Positions 9,300 through 15,059 of a DNA stretch of 30,934 nucleotides are shown here, one piece after another. Source of the stretch: a virus. The first letter of the stretch is position 1. Every line of letters starts with the position of its first letter. Under the pieces are notes generated by a model. That model saw nothing but the letters and a program-made list of their open reading frames with translations, did not search any database and was not told the origin of the DNA. The translations under genes and the position numbers were made by a program. The stretch lies in the IMG/VR virus record IMGVR_UViG_3300027856_000372, positions 1 to 30,934 of that record, one strand, 5' to 3'.

Positions 9300-9720
9300 C
9301 AGCAAACAATCCAGAACACCAAACAAAACAACAATAAAATGATTGATAGGTGCTTATTTAGAGCCATTCTAAATAGTAGCCACAGTAGCAGAGGACTACA
9401 AACGACTACAAACGGATAACGCCAAAGGCAGTGATACCAAGGAATTCGAGAGGGTAGAAGGTAGGGTTTATTATGTTGGGCACACAAATACACCCGCTTT
9501 CCTTCACTGCTCAGATACTAGGCGCCTATACTGTCTCATAATATTTATTATGTTAAATAGGCCAGGTTGGCAGGTCACCTATCCCCTACCCTAGCAAGGC
9601 ACAGAGCACACAGGCCACCAAAAAAACACACAGCGCACCGACCGACACCAGCGCTTAGAGCCTCAAGGCGTAGAGCATAGAGCAACACACGAACCAAACC
9701 GGATATATAACAAGGGGCAC

Positions 9721-13899: not shown

Positions 13900-13973
13900 C
13901 GGGGTGTAGCGCAGTTTGGTAGCGCGGGTGCTTTGGGAGCATCAGGTCGCAGGTTCGATCCCTGTCACCCCGA
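13900..13973 (+). tRNA. tRNA-Pro(TGG)
   Basis: Complete cloverleaf: acceptor CGGGGTG/CACCCCG, D arm with AGTTTGGTAG loop, anticodon stem GGTGC/GCATC around TTTGGGA (anticodon TGG), and T arm with GTTCGATCC. The discriminator base is A and CCA is not encoded. It starts 13 bases after the preceding terminator and 6 bases before the next tRNA, so both are probably processed from one precursor. Confidence 0.95.
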
Positions 13974-13979
13974 CATAAC

Positions 13980-14050
13980 TCTCCGGTCGTCTAGGGGCAG
14001 GACGTCTGGTTTTGGGCCAGAAAACGGTAGTTCGAATCTATCTCGGAGAA
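13980..14050 (+). tRNA. tRNA-Gln(TTG)
   Basis: Acceptor TCTCCGG pairs with TCGGAGA (one G-T), D stem GTC/GAC, anticodon stem TCTGG/CCAGA around TTTTGGG (anticodon TTG), T arm GGTAG/CTATC with loop TTCGAAT. Discriminator A, no encoded CCA. A Gln UUG anticodon is near-cognate to UAG, of interest given the in-frame TAG at 590-592, though nothing shows suppression. Confidence 0.93.
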
Positions 14051-14056
14051 CTTTAT

Positions 14057-14064
14057 TATATTTG
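14057..14064 (+). promoter_or_regulatory. Promoter -7 box TATATTTG of the tmRNA gene
   Basis: Exact match to TAnnTTTG. It begins 7 bases after the tRNA-Gln 3' end and predicts a transcription start at about 14069-14072, at the 5' edge of the segment that pairs as P2 of the tmRNA. Upstream -33 sequence falls within the tRNA gene and is not clearly consensus. Confidence 0.7.
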
Positions 14065-14067
14065 CAC

Positions 14068-14350
14068 CAGATTCGTTTGAGAAGAAACGGTGTTTGGACG
14101 AGGGTTCGATACCCTCCGGCTCCACAAGAAAACAGTATTGCCCGTCTAGGACAAACCTCATCTCCATTGTGGAAGAGTGTAAAGGTAATGACGTAAAGCG
14201 ATTATACTGGGGCCGACTGGTTTTGACTGCATTATAAATGTATACTTCGAGAGTCTGATCCTATAACAGGAAAAGTAATACCTCTTTTCTCACCTCAGCT
14301 TAGAGCTGTGGCGTAGAAACGTCCCATAGGCACGACACGTCTGTAGAAGA
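14068..14350 (+). ncRNA. ssrA: Circularly permuted (two-piece) tmRNA
   Basis: The acceptor half comes first: GTTTGGACGAGGGTTCGATA and onward, with T arm GAGGG/CCCTC (14100-14116), acceptor strand CGGCTCC (14117-14123), discriminator A14124, no CCA. An intervening segment (14125-14208) contains TATTGCC/GGTAATG. The coding half starts at 14209 with GGGGCCG, which pairs with CGGCTCC over 7 bp including G3-U70, the alanyl-tRNA synthetase identity pair. ACTGGTTTTGAC is the D-arm analogue. CAGATTC (14068-14074) pairs with GAGTCTG (14251-14257) as P2. A hairpin CAGCT-TAG-AGCTG (14296-14308) places the tag stop codon in its loop, like P5. The half-order matches permuted ssrA genes of alphaproteobacteria and cyanobacteria. 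Product: ribosome rescue by trans-translation. Confidence 0.92.
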
Positions 14351-14378
14351 AGCATCAGCCATTGGTTGGTGCTTTTTT
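14351..14378 (+). terminator. Intrinsic terminator of the tmRNA gene
   Basis: AGCATCAGCC (14351-14360) pairs with GGTTGGTGCT (14364-14373) over 10 bp with G-T pairs around a 3-base loop, followed by six T. It closes a transcription unit of about 310 nt begun at the TATATTTG box, containing both tmRNA halves. Confidence 0.8.
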
Positions 14379-14383
14379 ATTTG

Positions 14384-14527
14384 TATATTCGTGGTAAGCT
14401 GTGGATGCGAAAGCGATCAGCGGTGGAAAAACACCGGAGCTCCCGAGGTAAGATTTCAAAGTCAAACCCGAGGTTGAGCACTAGGACTGGAACACGACCA
14501 AGCTGGGGCCCTTTTAGGCCCCTTTTT
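14384..14527 (+). ncRNA. Structured RNA of about 130 nt, unidentified, with own promoter and terminator
   Basis: A -7-like box TATATTCG (14384-14391, one mismatch) predicts a start near 14397. The first bases, AGCT(G)TGG, pair with CCAAGCT (14498-14504) as a 7-bp closing stem with one bulge. Inside are hairpins GC-GAAA-GC near 14406-14413 and CGGTG/CACCG (14421-14436), and a direct repeat CCCGAGGT at 14442 and 14467. The end is a strong terminator, GGGGCC/GGCCCC (14505-14522) plus five T. No coding frame. It could be a 6S-type RNA or phage regulatory RNA; I do not recognise the family. Confidence 0.6.
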
Positions 14528-14744: not shown

Positions 14745-15059
14745 CTATTCCGGTATTATCCCCATTATGTTTGCTTCGAAAATTCGAAACAGTCGATCAT
14801 TCATTTTCCAGGCGAGGTTCGCTGGATATAGTATTACGTCCCCTTCTTTCACTTCGCAATCCTCTATTCTCGGATCCACGGAGATTATGCGAGCTCTTTT
14901 CGGCGCGGTAGTTCGTTTGTCCGGCGGGAGAATCAAATCCCCCTTCTTTCTCTCGAGGTCTCGCATGGGAGTCGCGTAGATGTGGGACGAGTGAGGAGTT
15001 ATCTTCTCCGGGCAGTCCCTGTAGCTGTGCGAGTCGTCCCCGCAGAATACACATTCCAT
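14745..15059 (-). CDS. Zinc-knuckle plus GroES-like (Cpn10-fold) protein, 104 aa
   Basis: Residues 3-16, CVFCGDDSHSYRDC, have the exact CX2CX4HX4C spacing of a retroviral-type zinc knuckle. From about residue 31 the pattern follows Cpn10 co-chaperonins: GDLILPPDKRTTAPKRARII then EVKEGDVILYP and a final RIFEANIMGIIPE. In GroES these correspond to the first strands, the mobile-loop region, the GD.V.Y core and the closing strand. Phages such as T4 carry their own co-chaperonin (gp31) for capsid folding, and this could serve the capsid protein made here. A zinc knuckle fused to a GroES-like domain is unusual. A generic beta-barrel is the alternative. Confidence 0.6.
   Translation of the reverse strand: MECVFCGDDSHSYRDCPEKITPHSSHIYATPMRDLERKKGDLILPPDKRTTAPKRARIISVDPRIEDCEVKEGDVILYPANLAWKMNDRLFRIFEANIMGIIPE

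Follow-up and report, generated by a model that had tools for sequence, protein, structure and literature searches.

The two-piece form of tmRNA, in which the acceptor half is encoded ahead of the coding half, is attributed to three bacterial lineages and to related marine phages (PMC9004378, PMC11915505). The study of the methylophage Melnitz counted 53 two-piece tmRNAs, 50 of them from marine or aquatic phages (PMC9004378), and 79 bacteriophage sequences, of either form, are listed in the tmRNA database (PMC11915505). A description of permuted tmRNA in crAss-like phages was not found in the literature searched, mainly main texts of open-access papers. The window analyzed here (the whole 30,934-nt stretch, positions 1 to 30,934 of IMG/VR record IMGVR_UViG_3300027856_000372) very probably encodes such an RNA. 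A circularly permuted, two-piece tmRNA (ssrA) encoded by the phage is the best explanation for a single unit at 14068-14345, in which the acceptor half is followed by an 84-nt intervening sequence, the coding half and a terminator (Table 1).

In piece order, acceptor stem, T arm, D-arm analogue and cross-piece P2, the window gene matches the permuted tmRNAs of alphaproteobacteria, betaproteobacteria and cyanobacteria (RF01849, RF01850 and RF01851, merged as RF04321), but it lies below the gathering cut-off in all four models. Because those cut-offs are failed, the gene is filed apart from the three families, as a permuted tmRNA by anatomy and as its own variant. Melnitz and other marine phages likewise encode a permuted tmRNA, but these genes are relatives of alphaproteobacterial ssrA with a link to a glutamine riboswitch according to that study (PMC9004378), and Melnitz is a myophage, not crAss-like. 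The Cellulophaga phages phi38:1 and Calle_1 resemble the window in a phage-encoded tmRNA with a GACTGGTTTTGACA-like 5' motif, with a match to the crAss-type muzzle in the Calle_1 record too, whereas the gene order in both is one-piece and the tag starts ~112 nt from the 5' end. The permuted ssrA genes of Crassvirales and of Chryseobacterium phage MA9V-3 resemble the window copy in their permuted order, a tag distance of 59-62 nt and, in most, a P2 11-12 nt before the resume codon; their tags start with GN and often end in R-L/I-A-A or AVA. Compared with these, the window copy is distinguished by an intervening sequence of 84 nt without a tRNA, the acceptor strand CGGCTCC and a UAG stop, while some Crassvirales copies have longer intervening sequences.

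Model matches and anatomy of the gene

The earlier note on this DNA had placed a permuted two-piece tmRNA at this locus, a placement borne out by RF04321 (tmRNA_permuted; E 6.7e-8 against all Rfam families in a sensitive scan, 5.8e-10 in a one-family search) at 46.5 bits, which is 0.5 bit under the curated gathering score of 47 bits of a model whose seed comes from alpha, beta and cyano sequences alone. On the same two halves, in the same order, the beta, alpha and cyano tmRNA models score 33.3, 25.9 and 24.4 bits, short of their gathering scores of 84, 50 and 70. In the covariance search proposed in the earlier note, both halves match the permuted models, with scores below threshold in every one of them. 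The shortfall of 0.5 bit explains why the Rfam gathering scan is silent for a tmRNA; that scan and ARAGORN return only the tRNA-Pro and tRNA-Gln at the locus, and neither the default ARAGORN run nor loosened runs (down to ps50) called the window tmRNA on the right ends, with only wrong placements among those listed. Both ARAGORN and the Rfam cut-off thus miss members of the permuted tmRNA. A model of the coding half that uses sequence alone and was made from 10 homologues, the window sequence left out, ranks 14209-14244 top in the whole window (E 6.1e-5, runner-up 1.4) and so places the start of the half independently at exactly 14209. BLASTN with the whole region gave tRNA-Pro matches among the matches listed, and BLASTN with the tmRNA alone gave short T-arm/acceptor matches, which pointed to Crassvirales records.

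Table 1. Features of the permuted tmRNA locus (window coordinates)
Feature	Position	Strand	Basis
tRNA-Pro (TGG), upstream neighbor, probably co-transcribed	13900-13974	+	Rfam, ARAGORN
tRNA-Gln (TTG), ends 16 nt before the acceptor-half P2 strand	13980-14051	+	Rfam, ARAGORN
tmRNA acceptor half: P2 3' strand, linker, T arm, acceptor 3' strand, discriminator A	14068-14124	+	
P2 strand CAGATTC, partner of 14251-14257	14068-14074	+	Anchored stem test
T arm GAGGG-TTCGATA-CCCTC	14100-14116	+	Rfam match, alignment of homologues
Acceptor stem 3' strand CGGCTCC	14117-14123	+	Covarying stem, G3-U70 in 11/11
Intervening sequence, 84 nt, presumed excised by tRNA-processing enzymes	14125-14208	+	Position from sequence; removal inferred
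tmRNA coding half: acceptor 5' strand, D-arm analogue, P2 5' strand, tag, 3' hairpins	14209-14345	+	3' end uncertain
Acceptor stem 5' strand GGGGCCG	14209-14215	+	Covarying stem in homologues
P2 strand GAGTCTG, 11 nt between its end and the resume codon, as in homologues	14251-14257	+	Anchored stem test
Tag reading frame GGA...GCG TAG, predicted GKVIPLFSPQLRAVA and stop	14269-14316	+	Resume offset 60, AUAAC[A/U] then GGN context, GKVI start
Intrinsic terminator, 15-pair stem + T run	14346-14378	+	

The acceptor stem between the pieces forms all seven pairs, G3-U70 included, as the earlier note had claimed. An RNAalifold alignment of 11 homologues, put in mature order, recovered this cross-piece stem, with pairs 5-7 changing on both sides and G3-U70 present in 11 of 11. 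The T arm and the D-arm analogue GGUUUYGAC are both present; the motif of the latter in the coding half reads GGUUUUGAC, with GGTTTTGAC at 14219-14227. The acceptor half ends on its discriminator A at 14124, and CCA is not encoded.

The same note had drawn P2 from CAGATTC and GAGTCTG, a 7-bp helix in the window gene that leaves only 11 nt before the resume codon. Stems of 6-9 pairs ending 11-12 nt before that codon occur in L043 (the same gene as L018), L002, L003, L005, L008 and L010, several of them unrelated in sequence, and L007 and L009 fit this position poorly. Loose duplex energy discriminates P2 poorly, so an anchored stem test was added; in it, true strand pairs outscored swapped ones (permutation test, p = 0.0014 over ten sequences and 0.015 over six groups represented by one sequence each). 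The looser duplex test gave p = 0.044, and in it the window duplex taken alone was not better than shuffled sequence. The minimum free energy fold of the whole unit, which is weakly significant (z -2.0), scrambles P2. The misfit of L007 and L009, the weak looser test and the result for the window duplex keep the support for a P2 helix across the pieces, as predicted from these alignments, at a moderate level.

Tag reading frame and rival explanations

Homologues have their resume codon 57-62 nt into the coding half; it is usually GGN and in most follows AUAAC or AUAAAC. The window gene has AUAACA followed by GGA at an offset of 60, and comparison with these homologues, rather than an ARAGORN call, predicts the tag GKVIPLFSPQLRAVA with a UAG stop; UAG is read as a stop in this phage because the capsid gene ends in TAG. 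The tag of homologue L196 is GKVIQMNNAPVRLAA, with which the window shares its GKVI start, and the tags elsewhere include GNVID... in MA9V-3 and DNTVNMIATRATRIAA in L018. The window tag ends in LRAVA and not the canonical ALAA, and the cr10_1 tag ends in LAVA. In six permuted control tmRNAs from other viral contigs the tag starts 81-106 nt into the coding half, against 60 in the window, which leaves little room for the usual PK1. The distance of 57-62 nt is unusually short and sets the crAss-like group apart from the six controls; with its short coding half, the gene may indicate how a tmRNA can work without PK1.

The stop codon lies in the P5 hairpin loop in some standard tmRNAs. The same RNA could accordingly be read in another frame, such as SNTSFLTSA ending at the hairpin-loop UAG (14297-14309), whose position parallels the stop in those genes. 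Such a frame is unlikely, however, because its resume site would fall outside the 57-62 nt range and the context of AUAAC followed by GGN seen in relatives.

Two further explanations retain the locus but question its function or its unity. A decayed or tag-less permuted tmRNA, which folds without tagging or serves as an SmpB-binding decoy, a role suggested for the tmRNA of mycobacteriophage DS6A, which consists of the TLD only (PMC4131195, PMC11915505), would suit a gene that falls under the Rfam cut-off, is missed by ARAGORN and has an unusual tag end. Against this, the acceptor stem, T arm, D-arm analogue and P2 are all intact, and the tag frame is open at the conserved offset and context with a GKVI start common to a separate homologue, so that loss of tagging deserves little credence. 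The location within a tRNA cluster, where neither half reaches a gathering score, might instead suggest two unrelated tRNA-like fragments, or remnants of separate genes, in chance order. This is very improbable, as the permuted models match both halves in the right order and the cross-piece stem covaries in homologues of identical order. The preferred reading is a permuted tmRNA that would tag from the GGA codon.

Transcription and a possible route to ribosome rescue

The earlier note had described one promoter-to-terminator unit, of which the terminator hairpin is present and the private promoter is unsupported. The '-7 box' TATATTTG at 14057-14064 lacks an upstream box to match it, and transcription that began 6-7 nt past it would cut into the P2 strand. 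As tRNA-Gln ends at 14051, co-transcription with the two tRNA genes just upstream is more likely; transcription of the tmRNA is probably shared with them, and 14068, rather than 14057, is probably close to the start of the mature acceptor half.

For processing, charging, rescue and benefit to the phage, known tmRNA biology suggests the following course. A single transcript from the tRNA-Pro/tRNA-Gln cluster would fold with the acceptor stem at the base of a loop that consists of the intervening sequence; host RNase P and 3' tRNA processing would excise this loop before CCA is added. An acceptor piece of ~60 nt and a coding piece of ~137 nt would remain held together by the acceptor stem and P2, and host AlaRS could charge the two-piece RNA via G3-U70. 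Of the window proteins compared with Pfam, none matched SmpB, and host SmpB is therefore assumed for rescue. With it and EF-Tu, the charged RNA would enter stalled ribosomes and resume at GGA, and the appended tag, with termination at UAG, would free ribosomes and mark the peptide during infection. Processing, tagging and any benefit during infection are open to direct tests in Chryseobacterium phage MA9V-3, an isolate that carries this type of gene.

Downstream of this unit, the stretch at 14385-14524 lies between two terminators and is RNA-like, with no Rfam match, a fold not better than shuffles and an exact motif found only in near-identical contigs. Close to the tmRNA, 14745-15059 on the minus strand matches GroES/Cpn10 weakly (E 8.6e-4, slightly short of the Pfam cut-off).

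The phage, its relatives and their hosts

The genes downstream of the tmRNA include Pfam matches to P22_portal, the SU10_MCP capsid protein and crAss_MUZ (E 2.4e-10), structural genes of crAss type that agree with the crAss-like assignment of the earlier note. The placement is a distant one, because tblastn of the portal, capsid and terminase found no match in 50,697 phage records; the muzzle had no significant named relative. By eye, no clear Shine-Dalgarno motif was seen in the gene leaders, which fits the probable Bacteroidota host that the same note had proposed. Two near-identical contigs exist and are identical at the tmRNA gene, so selection on it cannot be read from them. Among the few DNA-level matches there, two relatives share, at 86-90% identity, a stretch of 36-40 nt at 9522-9561 that contains the palindrome CATAATATTTATTATG.

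A relative whose capsid protein is 61% identical (G005) has an ARAGORN-called permuted tmRNA that scores 67.2 bits with RF04321 and carries the tag DNTVNMIATRATRIAA. It sits between the terminase and a minus-strand gene cluster, and the window copy lies on the far side of that cluster. The DNA examined for relatives with 83% and 64% capsid identity held no tmRNA gene. Elsewhere, ARAGORN calls permuted tmRNAs in Crassvirales cr114_1, cr125_1, cr60_1, cr10_1 and cr50_1 and in MA9V-3, to which Rfam adds the unannotated cr53_1; the annotated GenBank records say only 'SsrA'. The novelty that the earlier note had implied for the permuted form in such phages fails, since the gene is already present in these records.

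The comparison with hosts agrees with the one-piece form that the earlier note had named for Bacteroidota. Only 1 of 395 Bacteroidota genomes passed the permuted cut-off, in a search whose stricter filters, as used at large scale, could miss weak host copies. That single copy sits in a phage region, with phage replication genes and RIIA/RIIB around it and a crAss muzzle gene ~53 kb away on its contig; the genome also keeps a one-piece tmRNA (160 bits). The seven lower-scoring matches checked were all one-piece genes. Two-piece tmRNA here spans crAss-like phages, several gut and environmental relatives of the window virus among them, whose probable hosts lack the permuted form and have the one-piece gene; the phage gene is thus not simply a copy of one from a present host. 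CrAss-like and allied Bacteroidota phages might constitute a fourth lineage of permuted ssrA, which arose in phages from a one-piece phage gene, lost PK1, acquired phage-specific tags and is maintained although the hosts keep a one-piece gene, a tentative proposal that we regard as less likely than not. The permuted gene may also have come by transfer, and the bases that can be aligned are too few to give a tree the power to separate the two. One-piece tmRNAs L033 and L035, from other viral contigs, have the exact 19-nt 5' end GGGGCCGACTGGTTTTGAC and GK-starting tags as in the window copy and are possible one-piece cousins of it.

Several observations concern the Crassvirales genes themselves. 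In cr114_1 (L003) a tRNA-His at 1544-1616 lies within the intervening sequence, between an acceptor half that ends at 1534 and a coding half that starts at 1694, and the intervening sequences of cr10_1 (L007) and cr50_1 (L009) have in common a T-arm-like stretch, AGAGGTTCGACTCCTCT, that is not called as a tRNA. RAGATH-9, -20 and -22 RNAs occur upstream of Crassvirales permuted tmRNAs (L003, 1020-1187; L005, 40-197 and 1132-1233; L008, 788-956; L009, 357-523), that of L008 overlapping the annotated 5' end of the tmRNA. The muzzle genes of cr114_1 (68114-71803) and G408 (55894-59622) contain 26 and 10 in-frame TAG codons, as expected for TAG recoding, and in cr114_1, cr60_1 and cr10_1 the tmRNA tag stops at UAA or UGA rather than at UAG.
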